64,000 nt of DNA from Candidatus Brocadia sp. WS118 (GTDB taxonomy: Bacteria > Planctomycetota > Brocadiia > Brocadiales > Brocadiaceae): NCBI GenBank assembly GCA_007618135.1, contig PHFX01000151.1, forward strand, positions 1-64,000, given 5' to 3'. The notes under the pieces are model-generated. The model saw only the letters and a program-made list of their open reading frames with translations. It was not told where the DNA came from and made no database searches. Shown here piece by piece: positions 1-40,140 of this stretch (positions within the stretch are counted from its first letter, which is position 1; each line of letters opens with the position of its first letter). The position numbers and the translations under genes were made by a program.

Positions 1-3000
1 TTTTCCATTCATCTTGCTTTTTGTCTGTTCTCCCCAATATCCTTCCCAATATATCCACTCTTTATCTTTATCTGTCCAATAAGTCATCTCTTCAATTGCG
101 TATGGATATTTTTTAGAACTAGATTGTATTTCACTAATTTCACTTTCAGACATAGAATTTGGGTGCAATACATCCCCGTCACGATCTGTCTTGTCTGTGC
201 ACTTCCAGCAATCAAGAGCCTCTTTCTGATACCATATATGATCACCTGGTGAATTCCAGCATCCATGTCCTCCCAGTGTTACATACACATGGGGATGATT
301 GCCATCTTTACTCACTATATCTTTATTATCTTCATCTTTGTCATCCCATCCAAATGTTACCCCTCCATGGTGGTAGGAAAAGGAAATTCGCTCCGGTTGT
401 TTATTTTCCCCAAGCTCAATTTGAATCATCTCCCAGTCTCCCTCATGTGTATTACCTAATTTCTCTGATGTACCCCAATCATTGTAAACATAAAAAAACC
501 AATATTGCAGGATTATTTTCTCTTTACCATCTTTAGTTTGGCGAGCGTAAACAGTCTGACGCTCTTTCCAATCCTTTTTTACTTTTTTCTTTGCTTCCTT
601 TTTTAGCCGAAGATAATAAACATTAGCATTATATTCATCCATTAATTGCGCTAAAGAAAGCTTTTTGTCTTTATTGTCAAGAACTTGTGCTCCTTCATAT
701 TTTTTACAAGCACCAGTTTTCTTCTTTTTTTTACATTTTTTTTCGTATAATTCTGAATTATCTAACATCACCTCAACATTTGTAGGATGAAAGCGCTCTT
801 GTCCATGCATATATAAAATCGGTGCATGTTTCTTCAGGAGGTCTTCTTCCTCTGTGTTTGTTGTTGTAAAAAACATTTCAGTGCCAAGCGTAGTTCCAGC
901 ACTACTCTTAGCTACGAGTCTATAATAATAAGTAATCCCAGCTGATAACCCGCTTACGCCGATACTTACCGTTGTGTTGTTCGATCCGCTTACATTCTGT
1001 GAAGATGATTTACTGCTATACGACCCACTGCTTTTACCATATTCGAACCATGCCGTTGTTGTCAATCCATTGGCGTTGACAGTACCATTCAGTGTTACTG
1101 AACTTGATGTTATATTCGTTGCCGCACCAGTTGTTATTAGGGGGTTGGGTGATGGTGTAGGTGAAAGCGTGGGAGAAGGGGTAGGTGTGGTTGCAACAGA
1201 TGCAGAAAGATTGCTGTCAAACTTCGATACAAAGGCATCATAGTAACCAAAATAACCAGCATTATAAGATGTATCATATGCACCACTAATTGAGGGAAAG
1301 TCTGATGACGAAGTATCCCCCGTCACATACACATTCCCGCTCGTGTCGAGGGAGAGAGAATAACCATAATCATTCCCCAAAGCATAACCAGACCCACCAC
1401 CCAAATACGTGGAGGTAAGCAGGTTCGCGAGTTCACCGTTCAGCTTCGAGACAAAGATATCATAATCACCACCATTATAAGAGGTATCGTAAGCCCCGCT
1501 CGTCGTAGGAAAGTCTGCTGAATAAGTACTCCCCGTCACATATACATTCCCGCTTGTGTCAAGGGTAAGAAAATAACCATTATCATAACTAGACCCGCCC
1601 AGATACGTGGACACCAGTAGGGTCGTAAGTCCGCTATCCAACTTCGAGACAAAGACATCATTACTACTATTACGAGAGATATCATATGCTCCACCTGTCG
1701 TCGGAAAGTCTGATGAATAAGTATTCCCCGTCACATACACATTCCCGCTTGTGTCGAGGGAGAGAGAATAACCATAATCCCGATCAGATCCGCCCAGGAA
1801 CGTGGAGGCAAGCAAGTTCTTTAATCCACTATTCAGCTTCGAGACAAAGACATCATTACTACTATTACGAGAGATATCATATGCTCCACCTGTCGTGGGA
1901 AAGTCTGATGACGAAGTATCCCCCGTCACATACACATTCCCGCTTATGTCGAGGGCGAGAGACTCACCATCATCCTGACCAGAACCACCCAGGTACGTAG
2001 ATGCCAGCAGGCTCGTCAATCCACTGTCAAGCTTCGATACAAAGACATCATAAGAATCATAACCATTAAAATCGGTATCAAATGCATCGTCTGTCGTGGG
2101 AAAGCCTCCCTCAGTATATCCCGTCACATATACATTGCCACTTGTGTCGAGAGCAAGGCAAAGACCATAATCATTCAAAGCTCCGCCCATGTACGTGGAT
2201 GCAAGCAGACTCGTGAGTCCACTGTCAAGCTTCGAGACAAAGACATCATATGATGGACCACTGTAACCATAGGTATCGTATGCACCGGCCGTAGTGGGAA
2301 AGTCCGTCGACTTAGTATACCCCGTCACATATACATTCCCGCTTGTATCGAGGGTTATAGAATAACCAATTTCATTATGAGTCCCGCCCAGATACGTGGA
2401 TGCAAGTAAGGGGTCGATAACGAGGTCTTTGGTGCGGTCGTAGCTTGCTACGGTAAAACCGTAGGTTCGTGAGGCGCGTCCATTGTCCGTGCCCGTTGGT
2501 TGTGTTTGTTGTGTGTGTCTGTTTTTCGTGTTCGTTTTCTTTGAATACCTTACGGAGGACGGATCACGGTTACGCATCACGTATTTACAATCCACCTCCA
2601 CCCTCTTCCCATTAATCTCCTGATAGGCGACAGGTTTCGTAAATTTTACAGGACCCAGCTCCGTCTCTGCCACAAGTTCGCCGTGTTCATTTACAGACAA
2701 CCCCCTTGCCCCCTTTGTTAAGGGGGATTTTGTGGCAATTCCTCCCCTTGTTCCCTCTCCACCCCCTGCCCCCGCCAGCGGGGGACAACCACCTGTCCCC
2801 CTCACGGAGGGGGATAAAGGGGGAGGATTTTCAGGATATTGTATACCGCTCAGACTTATCTTGATCTGCTCTGGAACAGCGCCTGGTTTTACGTAAAGAA
2901 GTTTTTCCACATTATTCCCATGCGCCTTTAATTTCAGTTCGATGCCATCGTAAATCTCCCCAAGGTTTACCAATTCATACGTGGAGATATTGCTCTTCCA

Positions 3001-3663
3001 TTTGGATGGGTCGTTTCCCTTGAAATAGCTGACCTTTGTTACAGACTCGCCTTCGCCTTTTATCCCAGAAATCTTTGCGCCGATAAATTCCTCTTTCAGT
3101 GCAACGGCGGTGGATTGGGTTGCAGGGACACGGAGCGCTGTGTCCCTACGGGTAAACGGTGAATTGTTTACATGAGATTCTTCGCTCCGCTCAGAATGAC
3201 AAATGGAGGAATTCAAACCGGTATGACAAATGAGGGAATTCGTTTCAGAATAATGAACGGAAAAATTCCATGTGCAAAATGGAAATATAGTACACAAGGC
3301 ATGATGTACAATACATGTGCCTTCTTCCCCCCTATATCCCGTTAATCCTGTATATCCTGTCTCGTTTTTATCAATATTGTAATGCACAAGCGGGGACGCA
3401 TGTGCTGCCGTGTGAGGCAATGAATATACAATATTCCCGTCCTTTGTGACAAACACCGTGCCGCCGAACGTCCTGGCATAAAACGCCACACGTTCATCAA
3501 TCTGCCCCTCATTGGCGACAAAAGGCATCTGAAGTTTCTGTGTCTTTTGCATGACCTCTGCATTCGAAGGTTTGCCTTTGTGCCCGTGTTCCGCCAAAAT
3601 AGTATTTACCAATACCGTTATCAACAACAAGGCTACAGATACTACAAGAACCGCGTTCTTCAT
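1..3663 (-). CDS. Large secreted SBBP beta-propeller-repeat protein with FN3-like and Vps62-like regions (C-terminus outside window)
   Basis: The minus-strand frame is open from an ATG at 3663 to the left edge, so at least 1221 residues are visible and the stop lies outside. I chose 3663 over the in-frame ATG at 3672 because AAGGAG ends nine bases upstream of 3663 but abuts 3672. Residues 1-26 form a signal peptide, so the protein is exported. A conserved N-terminal part (NEGQIDERVAFYA near residue 48) precedes six SBBP repeats (about residues 410-820) carrying LDTSGNVYVTG and DVFVSKL. A T/P-rich linker, a fibronectin-III-like domain (about 840-930) and a Vps62-like region (QYWFFY, HEGDWE, VYVTLGGHG) follow. 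Two low-complexity stretches near residues 145 and 280-320 are dispersed repeats translated in frame. Its leader carries a c-di-GMP riboswitch. A surface or adhesive role is inference. Confidence 0.85.
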   Translation of the reverse strand, partial: MKNAVLVVSVALLLITVLVNTILAEHGHKGKPSNAEVMQKTQKLQMPFVANEGQIDERVAFYARTFGGTVFVTKDGNIVYSLPHTAAHASPLVHYNIDKNETGYTGLTGYRGEEGTCIVHHALCTIFPFCTWNFSVHYSETNSLICHTGLNSSICHSERSEESHVNNSPFTRRDTALRVPATQSTAVALKEEFIGAKISGIKGEGESVTKVSYFKGNDPSKWKSNISTYELVNLGEIYDGIELKLKAHGNNVEKLLYVKPGAVPEQIKISLSGIQYPENPPPLSPSVRGTGGCPPLAGAGGGEGTRGGIATKSPLTKGARGLSVNEHGELVAETELGPVKFTKPVAYQEINGKRVEVDCKYVMRNRDPSSVRYSKKTNTKNRHTQQTQPTGTDNGRASRTYGFTVASYDRTKDLVIDPLLASTYLGGTHNEIGYSITLDTSGNVYVTGYTKSTDFPTTAGAYDTYGYSGPSYDVFVSKLDSGLTSLLASTYMGGALNDYGLCLALDTSGNVYVTGYTEGGFPTTDDAFDTDFNGYDSYDVFVSKLDSGLTSLLASTYLGGSGQDDGESLALDISGNVYVTGDTSSSDFPTTGGAYDISRNSSNDVFVSKLNSGLKNLLASTFLGGSDRDYGYSLSLDTSGNVYVTGNTYSSDFPTTGGAYDISRNSSNDVFVSKLDSGLTTLLVSTYLGGSSYDNGYFLTLDTSGNVYVTGSTYSADFPTTSGAYDTSYNGGDYDIFVSKLNGELANLLTSTYLGGGSGYALGNDYGYSLSLDTSGNVYVTGDTSSSDFPSISGAYDTSYNAGYFGYYDAFVSKFDSNLSASVATTPTPSPTLSPTPSPNPLITTGAATNITSSSVTLNGTVNANGLTTTAWFEYGKSSGSYSSKSSSQNVSGSNNTTVSIGVSGLSAGITYYYRLVAKSSAGTTLGTEMFFTTTNTEEEDLLKKHAPILYMHGQERFHPTNVEVMLDNSELYEKKCKKKKKTGACKKYEGAQVLDNKDKKLSLAQLMDEYNANVYYLRLKKEAKKKVKKDWKERQTVYARQTKDGKEKIILQYWFFYVYNDWGTSEKLGNTHEGDWEMIQIELGENKQPERISFSYHHGGVTFGWDDKDEDNKDIVSKDGNHPHVYVTLGGHGCWNSPGDHIWYQKEALDCWKCTDKTDRDGDVLHPNSMSESEISEIQSSSKKYPYAIEEMTYWTDKDKEWIYWEGYWGEQTKSKMNGK
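1215..2420 (-). repeat. Six tandem SBBP-encoding repeats, about 195 bp each
   Basis: Six units are spaced roughly 190-205 bases apart. Each contains the reverse complement of a sequence encoding LDTSGNVYVTG, seen near 1330, 1545, 1735, 1930, 2130 and 2335. Stretches around 1656-1703 and 1854-1900 are almost identical over more than 40 bases, pointing to recent duplication of whole units. Such arrays can gain or lose units by recombination. Confidence 0.9.
2693..2835. repeat. G/C-tract dispersed repeats translated inside the SBBP protein
   Basis: Runs of CCCCC and GGGGG alternate, with pieces such as CCCCCTTTGTTAAGGGGGAT and GGGGGATAAAGGGGGAGGAT. A similar piece with the shared end GGAGGATTTTCAGG lies in an intergenic region near 19445-19530. 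Within the CDS the element is read in frame as a Pro/Gly-rich insertion with no stop. Confidence 0.75.
3165..3240. repeat. CHSERSEES-type dispersed repeat inside the SBBP protein gene
   Basis: The segment contains GATTCTTCGCTCCGCTCAGA followed by ATGAC, a common dispersed-repeat core, which is translated here on the minus strand as CHSERSEES. Related copies lie in non-coding DNA near 23740 and 34150. Confidence 0.75.
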
Positions 3664-3907
3664 TTTGCTCATCTCCTTTTCTTCCCTTCCGCTAAATCGG
3701 ACGCGCATAAACAATCCCCGTTCAAAGGATACAGAGACAGGTTTGTCGTTCTACTAAGCGCTCAAGACGAAATTCCTAGTGGCCGACTACCACACATTGC
3801 GATGTTGCGCCGGTCCTTTGGTCGGCTTCAATTCACATGATACGCACCGTGATTAGCCAATGGGCGGGGGATAAACCCCCGGGCTACAAATTATTTTCAT
3901 CACTTAA

Positions 3908-3959
3908 ACAAAAAAGCCTTACTGCAAAGATTTTTCCTAAACATCTTCGGCAGTAAGGC
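3908..3959 (-). terminator. Intrinsic terminator (riboswitch expression platform)
   Basis: Reading on the minus strand, GCCTTACTGC (3959-3950) pairs with GCAGTAAGGC (3925-3916). Inner pairs ATCTT/AAGAT extend the stem and a T-run (3915-3910) follows. It lies between the riboswitch aptamer and the SBBP gene, as expected for transcription control. The same arms recur at 28596-28639. Confidence 0.85.
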
Positions 3960-4004
3960 TGTCTTTAGGAGACTACTTCCTTATTGTCCTATGAATTCAC
4001 TTTT

Positions 4005-4082
4005 ATCAACGCACTTCCCTGTACGTCTAAAGACCCTTTGCTTTGCGTCCCCTGATCACTCAGGGTTTGCCTTTATCGTATG
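4005..4082 (-). ncRNA. Cyclic di-GMP-I (GEMM-I) riboswitch aptamer
   Basis: On the minus strand the leader reads AAAGGCAAACC, then a hairpin CCTGA-GTGA-TCAGG capped by a GNRA tetraloop, then GGACGCAAAGC. This is the conserved core of the GEMM-I class. A shorter second helix follows (AAAGGGTCTTTAGACG...). The base just before CAAACC is G, as in c-di-GMP-specific members and unlike the c-GAMP variant, which has A. It is followed by a terminator and then the SBBP gene, so c-di-GMP probably controls read-through into that gene. The P3 arm is short, and a covariance search would settle the boundaries. Confidence 0.82.
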
Positions 4083-28418: not shown

Positions 28419-28447
28419 TTGAGATACTTTATTATATATGTTATAAT
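28419..28447 (+). promoter_or_regulatory. Sigma70-type promoter for the second riboswitch transcript
   Basis: TTGAGA (28419-28424), a 17-base spacer and a perfect TATAAT (28442-28447), about 45 bases before the riboswitch core. Confidence 0.75.
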
Positions 28448-28489
28448 ATTTTTTAATAATTTTACGAAGTGGCAATAAAAGAACATATT

Positions 28490-28565
28490 ACGATAAAGGC
28501 AAACCCTGGGCAATCAGGGGACGCAAAGTAAAGGATCTTTCAATGGATGTGAGGTAAAGACGCAT
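28490..28565 (+). ncRNA. Second cyclic di-GMP-I (GEMM-I) riboswitch aptamer
   Basis: AAAGGCAAACC is followed by a hairpin CCTGG-GCAA-TCAGG with a GNRA loop, then GGACGCAAAGT and AAAGGATCTTTC. This is the same core as the element at 4005-4082. The base before CAAACC is G, as expected for c-di-GMP. A strong hairpin GACGCAT-GGAA-ATGCGTC (28559-28576) and a terminator follow. The first downstream gene starts at 28724. Aptamer edges are uncertain. Confidence 0.82.
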
Positions 28566-28595
28566 GGAAATGCGTCTCTCCTCCTAAAAAAGATA

Positions 28596-28650
28596 GCCTT
28601 ACTGCCGAAGATGTTATAAAAATATCTTTGCAGTAAGGCTTTTTTATTTT
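28596..28650 (+). terminator. Riboswitch-linked intrinsic terminator
   Basis: GCCTTACTGC (28596-28605) pairs with GCAGTAAGGC (28630-28639), extended inside by GAAGAT/ATCTTT-type pairs and followed by a run of T. It separates the aptamer from the operon. Confidence 0.85.
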
Positions 28651-28723
28651 ATAGCCAGACACGCTTATTGAGCAAGGGCTCATAATCAATGAAGTGTTAG
28701 AATGGAGAGATAAGGAGGGTATT

Positions 28724-29041
28724 ATGGGAGAAAAAGGAATTCAGGTAGTGATGCGAAATATTAATGATCATGTGTCTGCAGGCAGAACGTGTACGGAAGT
28801 TTTCGAAGGCGACCATGTCAGATTTTGTAAGAAACACGGCGTCGCCCGAGAAACACTGCATGGTAAAATTCTTGCAAATGCTGCAAAAGCAACGAAGAAT
28901 ACGTATGTTATCCAAAAAACTTTTGATAACACCAAAAGTAACATCGGTAGTAAGCACAGCAAGGGTAAGTGGGATATGGAACAATATATGCGCTCCTGGC
29001 TCGCCTGCAACCATTTGCCGGCCGGCAATTTTCATATGTAA
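28724..29041 (+). CDS. Unknown small protein, first gene behind the c-di-GMP riboswitch
   Basis: The protein has 105 residues from the ATG at 28724, preceded by GGAGGG at good spacing. An earlier start at 28694 lacks one. It is soluble-looking and basic (KKHGVARETLHGKILANAAK), with three cysteines and no signal peptide or membrane helix. I do not recognise a family. An antisense ORF covers nearly the same bases but lacks a ribosome-binding site. Being first after the riboswitch, it should be the gene most directly controlled. No terminator separates it from wrbA 88 bases later. Confidence 0.6.
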   Translation: MGEKGIQVVMRNINDHVSAGRTCTEVFEGDHVRFCKKHGVARETLHGKILANAAKATKNTYVIQKTFDNTKSNIGSKHSKGKWDMEQYMRSWLACNHLPAGNFHM

Positions 29042-29129
29042 CTCGATGGTTAGGCTAATAAAATCTAGCAGAAGAAAAGCCGTGATATTAATTGTGTGAA
29101 ACAACGAAAAGCGAGGAGAAGCAGACCCA

Positions 29130-29741
29130 ATGAAGGTGCTCATTGTCTACTATAGTACGTATGGTAACGTATACAAGATGGCGAAATTTGTGGCAGAGGG
29201 TGTTAAGGAAATCAAAGGGGCAGAGCCACTGATTCGCAGAGTGCCGGAATTGATTCCTTCGTCTGTTATTGATTCCCGCGAAGATATGAAGGCCGGCAGA
29301 GAAATGCAGAAAGACGTACCCTTGGTTTCAAAAGATGATTTCAAAGAAGCGGGAGCAATAGCTTTTGGCACGCCAACCAGGTTTGGAAATGTCTCAGCGC
29401 AATTAAAAAATCAGATAGATCAACTTACATCGTTATGGCTTGCAGGTGAACTTGAAGGCAAACCTGCCAGTGTCTTTGTGTCGACGGCAAGTCTTCACGG
29501 CGGGCAAGAGACGACGATACTTACCTTGATGGCCCCACTCTTGCATCTTGGTATGATACTCGTAGGTGTACCTTACTCAGTTAAAGAGCTGTTTACAACC
29601 CAGGCAGGTGGATCACCTTATGGACCTGGCCATGTAGCAGGACAAGACAGCCAGCGGGACATTGATCAACAAGAAGCGGCAATTTGCCGTGCCTTGGGAC
29701 GCCGGCTTGCTGAGGTTGGGCTTAGACTACAAAAAAAGTAA
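29130..29741 (+). CDS. wrbA: NAD(P)H:quinone oxidoreductase, WrbA type
   Basis: The 203-residue flavodoxin-fold enzyme reduces quinones by two electrons with FMN and NAD(P)H. The FMN phosphate loop is YYSTYGNVYKMA. FGTPTRFGNVSAQLKNQIDQ and VSTASLHGGQETTILTLMAPL are typical WrbA segments, and the ending PYGPGHVAGQDSQRDIDQQE is the WrbA signature. The ATG has GGAG upstream. It lies third in the riboswitch-led run if the aptamer is counted, next to a cupredoxin and a polyketide synthase, so a role with a quinone-like product is possible but inferred. Confidence 0.92.
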   Translation: MKVLIVYYSTYGNVYKMAKFVAEGVKEIKGAEPLIRRVPELIPSSVIDSREDMKAGREMQKDVPLVSKDDFKEAGAIAFGTPTRFGNVSAQLKNQIDQLTSLWLAGELEGKPASVFVSTASLHGGQETTILTLMAPLLHLGMILVGVPYSVKELFTTQAGGSPYGPGHVAGQDSQRDIDQQEAAICRALGRRLAEVGLRLQKK

Positions 29742-29770
29742 TGCATTCAAAAGGGATGGAATAACCGGCC

Positions 29771-30142
29771 ATGAAAAATATGCTTCTGATATTTTTCGTA
29801 ATTGTCTTTGCCGGATGCGCCGCTGTGAAGAAAGATAAGGCATTGGAATCAATGCCGCCAGATGCCCCCGTCACAAGGATATCAATAACGGCAAAGCAAT
29901 TTGAATTCACGCCCAAAATACTGCAGGTAAAGCAAGGCGCCCATATTATTTTAGAAATAGAAAGCCTGGACGTAACGCATGGTTTTAAGATTGAACATTA
30001 TGGAACTAACGTAACGATCCCTGAAAAAGGAAAAGTTACCGTTGAATTTTATGCCAGGAAAACGGGAACATATCCATTTAAGTGTTCTCACTTTTGCGGT
30101 GCGGGACACCTTGGCATGAAGGGCAAGATCGTTGTAGAATAA
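29771..30142 (+). CDS. CuA-type cupredoxin lipoprotein
   Basis: The protein has 123 residues. The signal peptide ends in a lipobox (VFAGC), so it should be anchored to a membrane outside the cytoplasm. The copper site CSHFCGAGHLGM follows the CuA pattern C-x3-C-x3-H-x2-M of cytochrome oxidase subunit II, with the upstream ligand His in DVTHGF. The residue between the cysteines that is usually Glu (CSELC) is His here. No oxidase subunit I is nearby, so it is a stand-alone electron carrier. It starts 29 bases after wrbA and ends 18 bases before the radical SAM gene. Confidence 0.88.
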   Translation: MKNMLLIFFVIVFAGCAAVKKDKALESMPPDAPVTRISITAKQFEFTPKILQVKQGAHIILEIESLDVTHGFKIEHYGTNVTIPEKGKVTVEFYARKTGTYPFKCSHFCGAGHLGMKGKIVVE

Positions 30143-30160
30143 CCAGGGAACTGTACCTGT

Positions 30161-31588
30161 GTGAATATTCTCATTGTCGCTACCAATCGATACTGCGGCC
30201 CTGTACCGGTTATGCCTATCGGCGCATGCCTTGTGGCTGAAGCCGCTGAGCGGGCTGGTCATAAGGTCAGGGTATTGGATTTGATGTTTGAAGAAAATCC
30301 ACTCCATGCCCTTGAATCCGAGCTTGAAATAATCAATCCTGATATCGTGGGTCTTTCGATACGAAATATCGACAATAACGATATGCAAAACCCCGCGTCT
30401 TTCTTTCAGGATTTGATACCATTGGCACAAACAATCCACAACAAGACGCAGTCGACCCTTGTGCTTGGTGGCGCTGCGGTCGCTGTCATGCCTGAAGAAT
30501 TACTCCGTTATACGGGGGCAGACTGGGCAATCCTGGGAGACGGAGAAGTTGTCTTCCCCAAATTAGCAGATTCACTATCCAAAAGTGAACTTCCCTGTCA
30601 ATTACCTGGTGTTGCATGGATTGACGATAGTGTCTTCAGAAAAAACACCGGGTATGTAGCCCGATTTTCAGACGGATGCCTGGTTCCCGGTTTCGACCGA
30701 TGGATTGATGTACATGCCTACCGGTCGAGGTTATCGACCGTTCCCATTCAAACAAAACTCGGATGCCACTTCAAATGTGTTTATTGCACCTACCGTAAAA
30801 TTGAGGGATACGACTACCGATTCTGTGATCCCGCAATGGTGGTCGATACTATTACGGATCTAGCAGACAAGGGGCTTAGAGACATTGAATTTGTTGACAA
30901 TGTATTTAATTCCCCGTATGATCATGCGCTCGCCATTTGTAATGGTCTTGCCAAGGCCAGACCCGATGTGCGCCTCCAGAGCCTGGAGTTAAACCCGCTT
31001 TTCATGGATGATGAGCTTCTTACCGTCATGGAGAAGGCCGGTTTTGTAGGTATTGGTATAACGGTTGAAAGTGCGTCCGGTGTTGTCCTGGGCGGTCTCC
31101 AGAAGGGGTTTACCGTAGAACACGTCCAAAATGCGGCACGGGTCGTTCAACGTCACAAAATCCCGTGCCTTTGGATTTTCATGTTGGGCGGGCCGTGCGA
31201 AACACAAGATACCGTTCAGGAAACCTTGCATTTTGCAGAACAATTCATACGTCCGAAAGACGTGGTATTTTTCAATATAGGAATACGCATCTATCCAGGC
31301 ACAGAACTTGAGCAGAGAGCACGTAAAGAAGGAGTGTTGACGATTCCTCCCCAGGAAATGCTGGAACCAGTGTTTTACCTTTCTCCCAACCTTGCTCTGG
31401 ACTGGTTAACCTATACGATACACAGTGCACTGAGTACACATCTAAACTATATTGACTCTAATACCATTGGTCTTTCATTTCTTCCGACTCTGAATCGTCT
31501 GGGATATAGGCTAGGAATTAAGTCACCCCTCTGGAGGCACACTCGTTTTATCCGACGTGGACTCCGGCTTTTTGGAATGGACGTGTAA
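30161..31588 (+). CDS. Cobalamin-type (B12-binding fold) radical SAM enzyme
   Basis: The protein has 475 residues. The N-terminal 150 residues form a B12-binding Rossmann fold (VMPIGACLVAEAAERAGHKV, DIVGLSIRNID, LVLGGAAVAVMPEELL, ILGDGE) without the DxHxxG histidine, as in many enzymes of this group. The radical SAM core has CHFKCVYC at about residue 201-208. A C-terminal region of about 90 residues is helical. Start is GTG. Its stop overlaps the start of the type III polyketide synthase (TAATG), so the two proteins are probably made together. Methylation or ring-forming chemistry on a polyketide is a reasonable guess only. Confidence 0.88.
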   Translation: MNILIVATNRYCGPVPVMPIGACLVAEAAERAGHKVRVLDLMFEENPLHALESELEIINPDIVGLSIRNIDNNDMQNPASFFQDLIPLAQTIHNKTQSTLVLGGAAVAVMPEELLRYTGADWAILGDGEVVFPKLADSLSKSELPCQLPGVAWIDDSVFRKNTGYVARFSDGCLVPGFDRWIDVHAYRSRLSTVPIQTKLGCHFKCVYCTYRKIEGYDYRFCDPAMVVDTITDLADKGLRDIEFVDNVFNSPYDHALAICNGLAKARPDVRLQSLELNPLFMDDELLTVMEKAGFVGIGITVESASGVVLGGLQKGFTVEHVQNAARVVQRHKIPCLWIFMLGGPCETQDTVQETLHFAEQFIRPKDVVFFNIGIRIYPGTELEQRARKEGVLTIPPQEMLEPVFYLSPNLALDWLTYTIHSALSTHLNYIDSNTIGLSFLPTLNRLGYRLGIKSPLWRHTRFIRRGLRLFGMDV

Positions 31589-32682
31589 TGGCGAACGATG
31601 ATAAACGGTTGTCATTCAATTCCACGGAAGGGAAGGCTTGCATAGCATCGGTAGCAGTTGCAACCCCGCCGTATAAGGTAAACCAGGCCCAGGCTGAGGA
31701 TTTTTTGGCTAGATATTACTCAGACAAACTGAGCAAAAAGAATCTTGCAATACTGCGGAAGATCTTTGCCCATCCAGCCATATTGCACAGACATCTTGCT
31801 CTGGACGACCTCAATGATCTTATCAATGAACATCCGGACAATCGTATTGCACGCTTCACACACTGGGCGGTAGACCTTTCATCTCAGGCAATCCTTAAGG
31901 CATTACAATCGATTGGATTGACCCCTGACGATGTATCCGGATTGGTCGTTAATACCTGTACGGGATATATTTGTCCCGGCATATCCACTTATCTCATAGA
32001 AAGATTGAACATGTCGGACAAGACACGCGCCCACGACCTCGTTGGCAGCGGTTGCGGGGGAGGAATTCCCAACTTACAGATAAGCGAAGATATGGTAAAA
32101 AGTTCGGATGATGGGGTGATCGTCTCTGTTTCAGTAGAGATCTGCAGCGCGACCTTTCAGATGTCGGATGATTTGAGTTTAATCATCTCAAATGCAATCT
32201 TCGCTGATGGCGCTTCTGCAGCCGTCCTTTGGCGCCGTTCTGAGGGATTGGCGCTCATCGCCTCAACAAGCTACTACGAACCTAAATCCCGTGATGATAT
32301 CCGCTATATTTACAAGAACGGACAACTCCACAATCAGCTTTCCGTTTGTCTTCCGGAATTGGCGGGTAAGGCGGTGGCAAGGGTTGTTACTGACCTGTTA
32401 AAACCGAGGGAACTGGCTCCGAAAGACATTCAACATTGGATCTTTCATCCTGGCGGTGAAAAGGTAATCAATGCCATCAGGGATGAGATAGGTCTAAGTG
32501 AAGGGCACCTTCAGGCGACGCGTGATGTTTTGTCCAGATATGGTAATATGTCCTCGCCTACCGTATTTTTTGTGCTGCGGGAGATCCTCAATAAAAGTGG
32601 TATTCATCCGGGAGACTGGTGTGTCATGGTGGCCTTTGGCGCCGGGCTCTGCGCCCACGCTTTTCTTCTCAGGGCCAGCTAA
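31588..32682 (+). CDS. Type III polyketide synthase (chalcone-synthase-like)
   Basis: The 364-residue homodimeric thiolase-fold enzyme would extend an acyl-CoA starter with malonyl-CoA and cyclise the chain. The catalytic triad is visible: Cys156 in VGSGCGGGIPNL, His287 in IFHPGGEKVI and Asn320 in GNMSSPTVFFVL. The C-terminal GFGPG-like loop reads VAFGAGLCAHAFLLR. Bacterial relatives make alkylresorcinols, alkylpyrones or polyketide quinones. It overlaps the radical SAM gene by one base. No acyl carrier protein or other synthase is close by. FabH is the nearest alternative family, but the Cys-His-Asn spacing fits type III PKS better. Confidence 0.9.
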   Translation: MANDDKRLSFNSTEGKACIASVAVATPPYKVNQAQAEDFLARYYSDKLSKKNLAILRKIFAHPAILHRHLALDDLNDLINEHPDNRIARFTHWAVDLSSQAILKALQSIGLTPDDVSGLVVNTCTGYICPGISTYLIERLNMSDKTRAHDLVGSGCGGGIPNLQISEDMVKSSDDGVIVSVSVEICSATFQMSDDLSLIISNAIFADGASAAVLWRRSEGLALIASTSYYEPKSRDDIRYIYKNGQLHNQLSVCLPELAGKAVARVVTDLLKPRELAPKDIQHWIFHPGGEKVINAIRDEIGLSEGHLQATRDVLSRYGNMSSPTVFFVLREILNKSGIHPGDWCVMVAFGAGLCAHAFLLRAS

Positions 32683-32733
32683 CGGCGCTTCCCCTCGGAA
32701 ATGAAACACGATGATGCTCACAATGAGACACGA

Positions 32734-32768
32734 CGAGAGATAGGGCTTGAAAATTCTCTCGTTTATTG
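32734..32768 (+). terminator. Probable terminator after the polyketide synthase gene
   Basis: CGAGAGA (32734-32740) pairs with TCTCTCG (32755-32761), followed by TTTATT. It would close the riboswitch-led transcript. Confidence 0.55.
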
Positions 32769-33630: not shown

Positions 33631-34113
33631 ATGCAGACGAATTTACCGGATGAACAATTCATGAAACTTGCCATCAGTAAGGCACGACAAGGCATTGAAA
33701 AAGGACAAACACCGTTTGGGGCATGTATCGTAAAAGACGGGAAGGTTATTAGCTGTGCGCATAATATCGTTTGGGAAACGATGGACATCACGGCACATGC
33801 GGAGATTCATGCAATCAGAGCGGCCGGTAAAATATTAAATACCGTTGACCTGTCTGGCTGTGTGATGTATTCTACCTGCGAACCTTGTCCCATGTGTTTT
33901 AGTGCCTGCCACTGGGCAAGGATCTCAAGGATTGTGTGCGGCACAAGAATCGATGACGCAAAAAAATTAGGATTTAGCGAACTTACCATCTCGAACAAGG
34001 AAATGAAACAATGTGGCAATAGCCCGGTAAAAATAGTTTCCGATTGCCTCCGGGATGAGAATCTGGCGCTTTTTGAATTTTGGAATAAACGGGCGGACAA
34101 GAGACTTTATTAG
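33631..34113 (+). CDS. Nucleoside/guanine deaminase-like zinc enzyme
   Basis: The 160-residue protein belongs to the cytidine/deoxycytidylate deaminase superfamily. The zinc site is formed by HAEIHAI and STCEPCPMCFSACHWA. The motif CEPCPMC and the segment SRIVCGTRIDDAKKLGF match guanine deaminases and related nucleoside deaminases more than TadA, which is usually more basic. The product could be xanthine from guanine, but tRNA adenosine or other purine substrates cannot be excluded. Its short intergenic regions carry no promoter I can call. Confidence 0.88.
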   Translation: MQTNLPDEQFMKLAISKARQGIEKGQTPFGACIVKDGKVISCAHNIVWETMDITAHAEIHAIRAAGKILNTVDLSGCVMYSTCEPCPMCFSACHWARISRIVCGTRIDDAKKLGFSELTISNKEMKQCGNSPVKIVSDCLRDENLALFEFWNKRADKRLY

Positions 34114-34275: not shown

Positions 34276-34329
34276 TTGCGCATATACTTACTTTCTACGT
34301 TTTGCAATAATTCTGCCAAAGGAGATTAC

Positions 34330-35787
34330 ATGTTTCACCCATCAAAGTGTTACGAAACACGGTACCGTGGTAACCAAGAGACCCATGTCTCTCTCCATTT
34401 CTCTGGAAAAAGCGGAGGAACACTTGATTACCCTTCTTCTCTGCATGGGGCACTGAAAGATTTTACCCTCGTTGTCGTGCTTGCCGGATTGTTTCTGTTT
34501 ACCGGTTGTGCGAATCAAAAAGAGACAACTATTACCCATCAAAAAACCGTGATTCCTCCCCCTGAAGAAACGACAGCACTTCCCAAAAGTGAAGAGGCAG
34601 TGACCGTTGTCAAAGAAGAGAGGGGAATCACGGAAGAATCCTTAAGGTGCATAACGTGTCACGAGGAACGCAGGGTTACGCATGGATGGGTGGCGGATTG
34701 GGAAGGGAGCAAACATGCGAGGAAGGGCGTGGGCTGCGAGGTGTGCCATGTCGGTTCTATCACGGAACTGGCAACAACGGAAATAACAGAATTGGAATAT
34801 TTGGGCACGCAGGGGAGCAGCTGCGAGGACAAAAGAGTCCGCCGTCATGTTACTGCCAGTATGTGCGGCAAATGCCATAAAAAAGAACACCAGGAATTTA
34901 TGAAGAGCCGGCACTCCGTGAGCTGGGAGGGGATGCTTGAGAGCAGAAAACTCATGTCCATTCCAAAAGACGCCCGGTCAGAAAAGTGTGAACAGTGCCA
35001 CAATATTCAGTTCAAATGCGATTCATGTCACACACGACATACCTTTAATACCCTTGAAGCAAAAACACCTGAGGCTTGCAGGACGTGTCACATGGGTTCA
35101 GATAATCCGCATTACGGGATGTATATTTCATCCAAGCACGGGAGTGTTTATATGACAAGTCAAGCCGCCATACTCAAAGAATCACAAACCATCTATTCCC
35201 TGAGATCTCCTGTCTGTGTTACCTGCCACATGCCGCAGGGCACGCATAATCTCAGTTTTGGACTTACCTATGGCCCGGTTGCAGGCAGCGGGCTCTATTA
35301 CCTTGGCAGGAACGGCGCTGCCATAGATGAGGTTGAATTCGCAAAGAAACGGGCGGATATGCTGTCGGTCTGTAATACATGCCACGCGTTATCCTTTGCA
35401 AAGGAAGCGTTACTAGGGGCTGATGACGTGTACAAAAATATCGAGGCTGTTATTAAAGAGGCGCGGGATATCGTCTCCGGTTTGGAAAGAGAAAACCTGT
35501 TGTCTCCTTCAATTGGTAAAACCATGAACATCCCTTTGCCCGGTCATGCCTTCGTTCAGGAGGCCTTACCATCGTATGCGAACAAATCCAGGATAGAACG
35601 CTTGTTTATCAAATTGAGCCATAGCGCCGCTGTTGCCTGGAAAGGGGCATATCATGGAAATCCTGGTTATGCGCACCTGTACGGGTGGGCAAAGCTTCAG
35701 GAAGATTTGAGTGATATGAAAGAAGAGGTAAAAAAGATACGTGAAGAGGCAGAATTAGAGAGGAAGATGAAAATGAAATTGCGGTGA
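34330..35787 (+). CDS. Octaheme c-type cytochrome of the hydroxylamine oxidoreductase (HAO) family
   Basis: The protein has 485 residues from the ATG at 34330, which has AAAGGAG five bases upstream. A hydrophobic segment ends in a lipobox-like LFTGC near residue 60, preceded by about 40 odd polar residues. Eight CxxCH haem sites follow: CITCH, CEVCH, CGKCH, CEQCH, CDSCH, CRTCH, CVTCH and CNTCH. The C-terminal HGNPGYAHLYGWAKLQEDL region matches HAO-type proteins. Members oxidise hydroxylamine or hydrazine, or reduce nitrite. Whether the Tyr that cross-links the catalytic haem is functional here cannot be told by eye. The C-terminus is a Lys/Glu-rich helix. Confidence 0.88.
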   Translation: MFHPSKCYETRYRGNQETHVSLHFSGKSGGTLDYPSSLHGALKDFTLVVVLAGLFLFTGCANQKETTITHQKTVIPPPEETTALPKSEEAVTVVKEERGITEESLRCITCHEERRVTHGWVADWEGSKHARKGVGCEVCHVGSITELATTEITELEYLGTQGSSCEDKRVRRHVTASMCGKCHKKEHQEFMKSRHSVSWEGMLESRKLMSIPKDARSEKCEQCHNIQFKCDSCHTRHTFNTLEAKTPEACRTCHMGSDNPHYGMYISSKHGSVYMTSQAAILKESQTIYSLRSPVCVTCHMPQGTHNLSFGLTYGPVAGSGLYYLGRNGAAIDEVEFAKKRADMLSVCNTCHALSFAKEALLGADDVYKNIEAVIKEARDIVSGLERENLLSPSIGKTMNIPLPGHAFVQEALPSYANKSRIERLFIKLSHSAAVAWKGAYHGNPGYAHLYGWAKLQEDLSDMKEEVKKIREEAELERKMKMKLR

Positions 35788-36128: not shown

Positions 36129-36417
36129 TTAAAAGTCTGTGTTTATCACTGGGACGCACCTGATCGCAAGCTATTTTTGAATCATAGTTAAGCCCGGTCT
36201 CAGATTTGGCCGGTAAAAATACCTCAAAGAATATACCATGGCAATATTTGACGAGGTAATCAGAACAACAGATACCCTATTTGACCCTTTATTCACATGA
36301 TCATTTGTAACAATAACACCCGGTCTTATTTTAGCCATTTCAGTCCCAACAGTTGGGGCTAGGCTTGAAACTTTTAACATTAAAGTAGACATTAATGCCT
36401 TTGCCATGTAGAGCAAA
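36112..36417 (-). pseudogene. Frameshifted mazF-family toxin gene
   Basis: Pieces of a MazF/PemK protein are read in three frames. The N-terminus starts at ATGGCAAAGG (36417) with NVYF. The middle is SLAPTVGTEMAKIRPGVIVT and VSVVLITSSNIAMVYS. The end is FEVFLPAKSETGLNYDSKIA then CDQVRPSDKHRLLKKLGI before a stop at 36114-36112. At least two frameshifts separate them. An intact MazF relative stands at 18113. Confidence 0.8.
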
Positions 36418-36688
36418 GAGTCTCTTCGCTCTCGAACTGCACCTTTAAAATTTCTAACCAATCAACTTCGATGTTCCGCGCCATTACCTGGTATGTATTT
36501 AGGACCCCAAGCGCGGTAACAATTTGCAGTAAACGATTCACATGAATCCCTTGTATTCCCCCTTCCGCAGGAAGATATTTCTCTTTATTATCGTCGTTCA
36601 TTATAATTAAGGCGTGCCGGCAAATAATTTATCTTGCTGTCCCGTGTCGTAGGTGAAACGATAGCGTAACCTTGAAGGAGCTATCTTT

Positions 36689-37576: not shown

Positions 37577-37989
37577 CGCAAGATTTTAAAAGCAAAGAGA
37601 GGAGATTTAAAGCATCTATTTGCAAAGGGAAAAAACTGTGGGTTTTTAATCTTACCTCCTCTTTTATCATATCCTGAAAAGTCTGGAAACCGTCGGTTGC
37701 ATACAGATGAAATTCTGTTTCTACCTGTCCCTTTTTTCTTAATTCCTAGAATACCCCTTCCAACTTTGGGTTTCCAGGTATGAGGATCTCTTCGGGGGCA
37801 GCCATCACTGGAAGACAACATAAAATCGTTATCAAGAAATAGAATGCTAAGTACTTTCCCAACATACATCGTGCAAAAAATAAATTGTAATTTATTTACT
37901 ACTAACATTTTGTTTGAGATTGCCGATTATATGAGATATTTTTAATAATAGCTCACAATCAAATGATACCCAAAAGCGCGGAGAACTCT
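37577..37989. other. Spacer before the first GGDEF-EAL gene
   Basis: A minus-strand frame from 37908 runs back into the L,D-transpeptidase gene. It begins with a hydrophobic stretch and then basic, low-complexity sequence, without a ribosome-binding site. I do not count it as a gene. No RNA structure was recognised. Confidence 0.4.
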
Positions 37990-40140
37990 ATGGGCAAAGA
38001 GAAGTTGAAAATACTTCTTGTCGATGATGACGAAGACGACTACATTATAACACAAGACCTGCTCTCTGAAATACGAATGAGGAAATTTGATTTATCCTGG
38101 GAAAAATCGTATGAGAATGCACTAAAGGTATTGAGTGTGAACCAATTTGACCTGTGTCTTTTCGACTATCGTCTCGGCGCAAAAACGGGATTGGATCTTT
38201 TACAAGAAGTCGTGAAAATTGGCTATAAGGGGCCAATTATTATCTTGACTGGACAAGACGATCAGGAAATTGATAAAGAGGTGATGAAAGCCGGCGCATC
38301 AGATTATCTGGTCAAAGGGCAGATAAATTCATCTTTGTTTGAGCGCTCTATTCGTCATGCTTTAGAGCGGAAACGTGCAGAAGAAGCCCTGGTAGCATCC
38401 AAAGATTATGCAGAGAATCTCATTAACAGCTCAATTGACATGATTGTAGCCACAAATACAGATCGTCTGATTACCGAGTTTAATCCTGCCGCACAAAAGG
38501 TATTTGGATACAACAAATACGATGTGCTCTACAAGCCGTTTCATTTTCTTTTTGCTAATCCCAATGAATGGCTGCAAATTAGCAAAAAAATAGAGCAGGA
38601 AAAGGTGTTTTCCGGAGAAGTAATCAAGAAAAAGAAAACTGGCGAAACCTTTCATTCATATTTATCTGCGTCTGTTTTGAGAGACTTGAAGGGCGAAGAA
38701 GTGGGAATTATTGGCATATCACGCGATATCACCGTGCAGAAACGTCTTGAGGCACAACTGTTGTATAATGCTTTTCATGATTCATTGACTGGCCTTCCTA
38801 ATAGAAAGCTTTTTATGAATCATCTGGAAAAAGTGATAGCATGCGCACAAACGAATAAAGGTTTTTTATTTGCCGTGCTTTTCCTCGATATCGACCGCTT
38901 TAAGGTCATAAATGACAGCCTTGGCCATGCAATCGGGGACAAGTTATTGATTTCAATTGCAGAAAGACTAAAAGAATGCCTGCGTCATAACGATATCGTT
39001 GCACGTTTTGGCGGAGATGAGTTTGTTATCCTTCTTAACGATATAAGGGAGAAATCGTGTGCAAAAGTTATTGCAGAAAAAATCTTAAAAAGTCTGAAGG
39101 AACCTTTCTACCTTAATGGACACAGTGTGTTTACCGGCACGAGCATAGGAATTGTCCTGAGTGAGGAATATTACGATCGGCCAGAGGATATCCTTAGAGA
39201 TGCCGATACCGTGATGTATCGTGCAAAAATGAATGGCAGATCTAATTATGCAATGTTTGACAAAAAGATGCATGCTCACGCCGTGAAAGCCTTACAGCTG
39301 GAGGCGGACCTTCAAAAGGCAATTGTAAACAATGAATTTAAAATGTATTATCAGCCCATCGTGTCATTGGTAGACGGCAATATTATTGGTGTTGAGTCTC
39401 TCCTCCGTTGGGAACATCCACAAAGTGGCTTAATCTCTCCCGCAGAATTCATACCCCTGGCAGAAGAGACAGGAATGATTGAACCTATCGGCAGATGGGT
39501 AATAAAAGAAGCCCTTTCTCAAAACAAGGTCTGGCTTGACGCTGGATATTCAAATACGTCTCTTTCAGTAAATGTTTCAGCACGACAATTCCGAAGTCGT
39601 AACTTACCAGAAGTAATACAAAGAATATTGGAAGAAACTGGCATGAATTCGAAGGCCTTCGATTTAGAGATCACGGAAAGTAGTGTCATGGAGGATATGG
39701 ATAGAGGAATTAAAACACTGGAAGAACTAAGCGGCATGGGCATAAAAATTATGCTTGATGATTTTGGTACAGGTTTTTCTTCAATAAATAACTTACGGTT
39801 CTTGCCGGTGAGCGGAATAAAAATAGATCTATCTCTAACAAAAGACGTTGCTATAAGCCCTGGCGCTGCAACAATTGCCAAGGCGATTATCCAAATGGCA
39901 CACGGCCTTAACAAAAAGGTAGTGGCTGAAGGGGTAGAAACGGAAGCACAGCTGGAATTTTTACGTTCCCATAATTGTGACATGGCACAGGGCTATCTTT
40001 TCGGCAAGCCCATGCCTGCAAATGAACTTGTGAAGGTATTGCAAAAAAATAATACAGCTCACAGAGTATTGAGTAATAAAAAGTTCTCACCATCAAATAC
40101 CTCTCTCCAAAAGAGTTTTGCCAACTCATTTGCGACGTAA
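37990..40140 (+). CDS. Response regulator REC-PAS-GGDEF-EAL (c-di-GMP turnover)
   Basis: The protein has 716 residues from the ATG at 37990 (GGAG seven bases upstream). The REC domain has acidic VDDDEDD and phospho-acceptor Asp in LCLFDYRLG. The PAS domain follows at about residues 140-260. The GGDEF motif is intact (RFGGDEFVILL), so diguanylate cyclase activity is likely. The EAL domain has VESLLRWEHP and LDDFGTGFSSI, both catalytic motifs of phosphodiesterases. No transmembrane segment is present. A close paralogue of the same layout is at 61640-63781. No cognate kinase is adjacent. Confidence 0.95.
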   Translation: MGKEKLKILLVDDDEDDYIITQDLLSEIRMRKFDLSWEKSYENALKVLSVNQFDLCLFDYRLGAKTGLDLLQEVVKIGYKGPIIILTGQDDQEIDKEVMKAGASDYLVKGQINSSLFERSIRHALERKRAEEALVASKDYAENLINSSIDMIVATNTDRLITEFNPAAQKVFGYNKYDVLYKPFHFLFANPNEWLQISKKIEQEKVFSGEVIKKKKTGETFHSYLSASVLRDLKGEEVGIIGISRDITVQKRLEAQLLYNAFHDSLTGLPNRKLFMNHLEKVIACAQTNKGFLFAVLFLDIDRFKVINDSLGHAIGDKLLISIAERLKECLRHNDIVARFGGDEFVILLNDIREKSCAKVIAEKILKSLKEPFYLNGHSVFTGTSIGIVLSEEYYDRPEDILRDADTVMYRAKMNGRSNYAMFDKKMHAHAVKALQLEADLQKAIVNNEFKMYYQPIVSLVDGNIIGVESLLRWEHPQSGLISPAEFIPLAEETGMIEPIGRWVIKEALSQNKVWLDAGYSNTSLSVNVSARQFRSRNLPEVIQRILEETGMNSKAFDLEITESSVMEDMDRGIKTLEELSGMGIKIMLDDFGTGFSSINNLRFLPVSGIKIDLSLTKDVAISPGAATIAKAIIQMAHGLNKKVVAEGVETEAQLEFLRSHNCDMAQGYLFGKPMPANELVKVLQKNNTAHRVLSNKKFSPSNTSLQKSFANSFAT

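Follow-up and report, generated by a model that had tools for sequence, protein, structure and literature searches.

A 64,000-nucleotide stretch of DNA from Candidatus Brocadia sp. WS118 (contig PHFX01000151.1; hereafter the window) carries a GEMM-I riboswitch ahead of five plus-strand genes, which include wrbA and genes for a CuA-type cupredoxin, a cobalamin (B12)-binding radical S-adenosylmethionine protein (rSAM) and a type III polyketide synthase (PKS). Does this run encode one conserved pathway switched by cyclic di-GMP (c-di-GMP), as an earlier note on this DNA had claimed? Our comparative analysis argues for a different arrangement: the rSAM-PKS pair is an independent two-gene unit, the riboswitch is part of a stress operon (wrbA/pirin/HtrA/NmrA) and travels with wrbA rather than with the PKS, and the run is two units joined in some Brocadia. 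Comparisons covered a genus set of 11 genomes, including the genome that carries the window (G000) and Ca. Brocadia pituitae (G004), and a family set of 33 genomes. They also covered GTDB genomes, in which 132 stretches with PKS relatives were found and 80 were kept for analysis, drawn from anammox bacteria (Brocadia, Jettenia, Scalindua, Loosdrechtia), Nitrospirota, Geobacter/Geomonas, Elusimicrobia, Chitinivibrionales and a few others.

Two conserved units in one gene run

The rSAM gene lies directly upstream of the PKS gene in 18 of the 19 family loci that have upstream sequence. Across phyla, where linkage was counted as an rSAM gene within 6 kb upstream of the PKS, the pair was found in 62 of 71 loci, 47 of them with a separation of no more than 300 bases; the Geomonas rSAM is only ~33% identical and its gene lies 2-3 kb from the PKS. 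WrbA is encoded upstream at 11 of 20 family PKS loci and CuA at 8 of 20, the window included, and outside anammox bacteria neither stands beside the PKS at any of 53 loci. A PKS orthologue is present in ~24 of the 33 family genomes, fragments counted, and one of these genomes (G020) is a single contig. The nearly complete genomes G005, G019 and G024 lack the pair, which indicates that the PKS is not essential. Phylogenetic analysis placed the Brocadiales PKSs in one clade (19 rows, support 100/99), consistent with vertical descent within anammox bacteria from an origin either deep or transferred, and the subfamily around this clade stands well apart from the remaining planctomycetal type III PKSs. 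In K. stuttgartiensis, whose anammox genome it examined, an earlier survey detected no PKS-like enzyme (PMC2649909), and a groundwater survey listed no PKS for Brocadiaceae bins (PMC5383146). We found no description of the rSAM-PKS pair in the literature, including under type III PKS, radical SAM and Geobacter, which is weak evidence given that subscription papers fell mostly outside the search; the pair is widespread yet apparently undescribed, and is the novel part of this locus.

The riboswitch keeps different company. All 11 genus genomes possess wrbA, and in nine of them (G000, G003, G004, G006, G007, G008, G009, G010 and G011) a riboswitch lies upstream of it, in G003 and G008 without any PKS. 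Between riboswitch and wrbA, relatives encode a thioredoxin-like tetratricopeptide-repeat (TPR) protein, an isochorismatase-like hydrolase (of the YcaC family in G006), pirin and HtrA, to which G007 adds an intact NmrA-type protein of 290 residues; the riboswitch ahead of wrbA is mostly the leader of this stress operon. The G012 locus stops at a contig edge, with no aptamer in the ~660 bases available upstream. Overall, the PKS goes with the rSAM and the riboswitch with wrbA, and the proposal of a single conserved pathway does not hold. The same note had made its reading depend on riboswitch linkage of the PKS pair in related genomes, and such linkage was indeed found in three relatives of the same genus. 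The linkage is confined to some Brocadia.

The first gene of the run is ORF1 (28724-29041, plus strand). It had been described as belonging to no known family, a designation that we rejected because ORF1 aligns to the middle of the intact NmrA-type homologue of G007. Its match to PF05368 is weak (E 0.021, 14.8 bits), and that of a longer homologue from Ca. Brocadia pituitae is stronger (9e-5, 22.6 bits), both below the gathering threshold of 27. The ratio of nonsynonymous to synonymous substitution rates (dN/dS) among the ORF1 remnants is 0.42-0.54, versus 0.03-0.05 for wrbA. These three lines of evidence suggest a truncated, decaying NmrA-type NAD(P)-binding reductase that is probably no longer an enzyme, although some constraint on the remnants may remain.

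Variation around the stress operon was also observed. In G005 the aptamer (L112 2660-2790) has decayed: conserved bases are lost and no terminator remains, a natural case of switch loss. This genome has no PKS either. G006 possesses a second riboswitch-led operon (L235 798-8441) encoding a WrbA paralogue and FAD oxidase-like, zinc alcohol dehydrogenase-like and cardiolipin-synthase-like proteins. In G000, a thioredoxin-TPR gene and an open reading frame of 210 codons, the size of an isochorismatase-like protein, follow another riboswitch (L069, G000:C229, aptamer 36398-36521, minus strand), which suggests that the ancestral wrbA operon was split in this genome and that each part retained a switch.

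The leader riboswitch and its dispersed family

The leader in the window begins with a sigma-70-like promoter, TTGAGA-17-TATAAT (28419-28447, plus strand), which a pattern scan recovered with 11 of 12 matches and a TG before the -10 element. Because the region holds 12 promoter-like sites versus 8.5 +/- 3.4 expected, this match by itself proves little. The GEMM-I core that the earlier note had recognized was confirmed by covariance search as an aptamer of c-di-GMP-I type at 28489-28610 (plus strand; RF03167, 63 bits, E 1.6e-12 in 64 kb, gathering threshold 59 bits), and none of 14 control genomes gave a match. Alignment of the window copy and of the 38 copies in its genome identified the contact residues as G20, A47 and C92, in what we take to be Vc2 numbering. 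The GGC sub-model RF03167, whose name presumably denotes G at position 47, scores best even though that position is A, the canonical c-di-GMP-I base, in the window copy and in the other copies listed. Nor does the window aptamer have the base of the cGAMP-type (GEMM-Ib) riboswitches, which we take to be A in place of G at position 20. Position 20 is the selectivity position of this superclass (PMC9262584). This residue set, with neither the cGAMP-type change at position 20 nor G47, makes c-di-GMP the best guess for the ligand, and the aptamer probably senses it, in line with the earlier assignment.

Downstream, an intrinsic terminator occupies 28595-28650 (plus strand), with a hairpin that starts at 28595, a 3' arm that extends to 28640, a folding energy of -26.4 kcal/mol and a T tract behind it; promoter, aptamer and terminator stand in the order that the earlier note had given. 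A single segment, AGCCUUACUGC, serves both as 3' strand in the aptamer and as 5' arm in the terminator. Computed folding of the growing transcript favored the aptamer-side fold until ~28632, after which the terminator wins as its 3' arm emerges. Since the two folds are mutually exclusive, ligand binding should permit polymerase read-through, and the riboswitch should act as a transcriptional ON switch. In the pilM riboswitch of Geobacter metallireducens, from the same superclass, aptamer and terminator folds also exclude each other and give an ON switch (PMC9262584), but the cGAMP-type A20 of that GEMM-Ib element is G20 here. Relative to known c-di-GMP-I riboswitches (RF01051/RF03167), the window copy agrees in fold, in the G20/A47/C92 contacts, in its position as a 5' leader and in its transcription-terminator platform; it differs in matching the GGC sub-model best despite A47, in leading a wrbA stress operon, and in being one of 38 dispersed copies with near-identical cores. 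Rfam microRNA matches over the terminator were rejected as chance hairpins below gathering thresholds.

The genus carries 20 to 56 GEMM-I riboswitches per genome, counts that may be lower bounds because only the best candidates were scored. Nearly all 38 copies in G000 share their P3 strand and terminator core, and the strand-sharing layout recurs in most of them. A second copy lies in the window itself (3946-4081, minus strand), leading an SBBP beta-propeller protein (1-3714, minus strand). Genes that come first after G000 riboswitches include those for SBBP beta-propeller, Lcl_C, subtilisin, caspase-PEGA, beta-helix, DUF11 and RCC1 proteins as well as OmpH, cytochrome c', a sigma-54 response regulator and a polysaccharide synthesis protein; functions at the surface, in secretion and in the matrix predominate. 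The riboswitch is ordinary in kind and unusual in number. Literature joining anammox, riboswitch and c-di-GMP, judged mostly from titles and abstracts, appeared to contain no description of anammox riboswitches, weak evidence because subscription papers fell mostly outside the search. For bacteria that grow as granules and biofilms, the expanded family makes c-di-GMP control directly testable.

Two further features of this signaling system were noted. In several genomes the wrbA riboswitch carries, in its distal P3 loop, tandem GTTTAAAC-like repeats whose length varies (L046 4551-4760, L113, L234, L236). A response regulator with PAS, GGDEF and EAL domains (37963-40140, plus strand), ~5 kb beyond the PKS, is a candidate c-di-GMP turnover enzyme.

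Predicted chemistry of the PKS and rSAM enzymes

Profile matches confirmed the identities proposed for WrbA, CuA, rSAM and PKS. The PKS (31588-32682, plus strand; PF02797, PF00195, PF08392) possesses a Cys-His-Asn triad, C156/H287/N320, that is invariant in 12 orthologues, and a thiolase fold without a carrier domain, as expected of type III enzymes. By sequence or fold it matches Mycobacterium tuberculosis Pks11 (7.7e-38), stilbene synthases of plants and CylI, which makes resorcinols, with Pks11 and CylI returned by Foldseek; the DpgA model (NF042429) gave 175 bits against a cut-off of 425. In other planctomycetes, operons of a methyltransferase, an FAD oxidoreductase and a type III PKS make alkylresorcinols (PMC10896814). 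Like such hierridin-type operons, the run in the window is short, ends in a type III PKS and includes a step predicted to be C-methylation, but it has a B12-rSAM instead of the methyltransferase and no FAD oxidoreductase; a methyltransferase together with an FAD oxidoreductase was absent from the PKS neighborhoods of both the window and the family. The PKS is ~28-31% identical to the far-branch planctomycetal type III PKSs of our tree, which may or may not be the alkylresorcinol synthases.

The rSAM (30161-31588, plus strand; PF02310, PF04055) is a predicted C-methylase. Against TIGR04072 (rSAM_ladder_B12) it scores 317.7 bits, under the equivalog cut-off of 360, and with full-length similarity and a common SIRN motif it is a sister group of that family, whose true members form a separate paralogue above cut-off in 7 family genomes. 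The structure model (pLDDT 83.6) has as its best Foldseek match TsrM, a cobalamin-dependent tryptophan C2-methyltransferase (TM 0.83), and the two proteins have the CX3CX2C motif in common. Arg68 corresponds to TsrM Arg69, below the cobalt, and is invariant in 10 orthologues; the sister group TIGR04072 also has the equivalent residue, which did not appear in the two other G000 B12-rSAMs with a readable motif. In TsrM the lower face of cobalt is blocked by Arg69, which favors transfer of the methyl group to an electron-rich carbon (PMC8992657). A PKS-made resorcinol or pyrone would be a plausible electron-rich methyl acceptor for the rSAM, a polyketide partner in place of the free tryptophan used by TsrM.

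Which product results can also be approached through gene neighbors in other phyla. U32 proteins are encoded beside PKS orthologues in 15 loci of Geobacter, Geomonas and Chitinivibrionales, and UbiE-like methyltransferases in at least 10, which points independently to hydroxylated, methylated aromatics. UbiU and UbiV, both U32 proteins, function in making ubiquinone without O2. Ubiquinone synthesis of this O2-independent kind has been described (PMC6747719). A homologue of the Geobacter U32 partner was not found in the 33 family genomes, by a search that had no positive control and shows little. Given that negative, a quinone, though possible, is a less probable product here than a resorcinol or pyrone carrying a methyl group, and we favor a C-methylated alkyl-resorcinol or pyrone. 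U32 and UbiE-like genes lie by the PKS at L151, L162, L170, L172, L174, L184 and L189, a possible anaerobic quinone-like pathway.

Gene layout and competing explanations

The genes between ORF1 and the enzyme pair encode WrbA, an NAD(P)H:quinone oxidoreductase (29130-29741, plus strand; NF002999, 216 bits, cut-off 141), and a CuA-type cupredoxin lipoprotein (29771-30142, plus strand; PF13473, 42.8 bits, and the C-terminal CuA part of the NosZ and CoxB models). The cupredoxin translation contains the ligand motif CX3CX3HX2M, in CSHFCGAGHLGM, and an upstream His, in THGF. Intergenic gaps of 88, 29 and 18 bases and a final overlap of one base were found as the earlier note had given them, and this spacing is consistent with a single transcript. 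A pattern scan for promoters and terminators inside the run gave chance-level sites only. Of the hairpin said to close the run, a weak version exists near 32730-32765, but the terminator scan did not pick it up.

We give an even chance to the explanation that the riboswitch exerts ON control over a shrunken stress operon that runs into CuA and the rSAM-PKS unit, which would make a C-methylated polyketide. The riboswitch, read as a c-di-GMP sensor, would lead a transcript in the window; bound c-di-GMP would cause the aptamer to retain the strand needed to start the terminator, and polymerase would read on. The ancestral target would have been a redox/protein-stress operon of thioredoxin-like, isochorismatase-like, pirin, HtrA, NmrA and WrbA proteins, reduced in this Brocadia lineage, by our reading, to the NmrA remnant and wrbA and continuing into CuA and the ancient B12-rSAM/PKS unit. 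The PKS would join an acyl starter with malonyl-CoA to yield an electron-rich resorcinol or pyrone, which the rSAM would C-methylate without oxygen. Three observations count against this account. First, the PKS is not linked to the riboswitch in G006, G007 or G010, nor in any other genus with loci searched; its control by c-di-GMP would at best be specific to a lineage. Second, confidence in the PKS structure model is only medium (pLDDT 70). Finally, TsrM Glu273, which caps the unique iron, is replaced by Val (V248) in all 10 rSAM orthologues, and the mechanism need not be TsrM-like. An alternative that we consider rather unlikely is that wrbA or CuA is the last gene of the regulated unit, and that the rSAM-PKS pair is a separately transcribed neighbor, placed there by rearrangement and outside c-di-GMP control. 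Such independence would suit the riboswitch-wrbA units of G003 and G008, which have no PKS, and the PKS pairs of G006, G007 and G010, which lie elsewhere without a riboswitch; a promoter-like TTGGCA-18-TAGAAT site (30111-30140) also lies just upstream of the rSAM gene. However, sites of this type occur at chance frequency, the gaps of 29 and 18 bases between wrbA and the pair argue against separate transcription, the sole terminator-like site on the plus strand from wrbA to the PKS is weak and lies inside the rSAM gene, and wrbA precedes the pair at the 11 family loci counted above.

The remaining alternatives concern the product. We are doubtful that the run encodes a redox-active alkyl-quinone pathway, in which a PKS resorcinol would be tailored to a quinone, reduced by WrbA and served by CuA as electron carrier. 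Polyketide quinones from type III PKSs are known from Streptomyces (PMC9927152), and the U32 and UbiE-like neighbors in other phyla would support the idea best, rather than WrbA or CuA. These last two accompany the PKS at none of the non-anammox loci, wrbA remains with the riboswitch in genomes without a PKS, and ring hydroxylation is left unexplained by the U32 search, which had no positive control. A role of the pair in ladderane lipid synthesis is suggested by TIGR04072 being the nearest curated model of the rSAM and by the proposal of a B12-rSAM, Kuste2803, for ladderanes (PMC2649909). The below-cut-off score, the separate above-cut-off paralogue and the distribution of the pair, which is missing from nearly complete G005, G019 and G024 yet present in Geobacter and Nitrospirota, led us to reject this role as highly improbable. 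Neither Geobacter nor Nitrospirota is known to make ladderanes. A broader form of the favored explanation, which we advance only as an unlikely but testable idea, is that anammox bacteria, Nitrospirota, Elusimicrobia and Geobacter relatives make a methylated polyketide lipid or quinone by a strictly anaerobic route that combines a B12-rSAM methylase with a dedicated type III PKS, and that some Brocadia have put it under c-di-GMP ON control within a biofilm/redox-stress regulon of ~40 riboswitches. Most descriptions of how type III PKS products are tailored come from plants, actinobacteria, cyanobacteria and aerobic planctomycetes. If the idea is true, the conserved pair would be an oxygen-independent counterpart in anaerobes, its product a lipid not yet described, and its occurrence in cultivable Geomonas renders it testable.

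Beyond the PKS, the window encodes a cytidine-deaminase-like protein (33631-34113) and an HAO-like multihaem cytochrome (34276-35787, plus strand), and in several genomes of Brocadia genes of these two kinds come after wrbA or the PKS.

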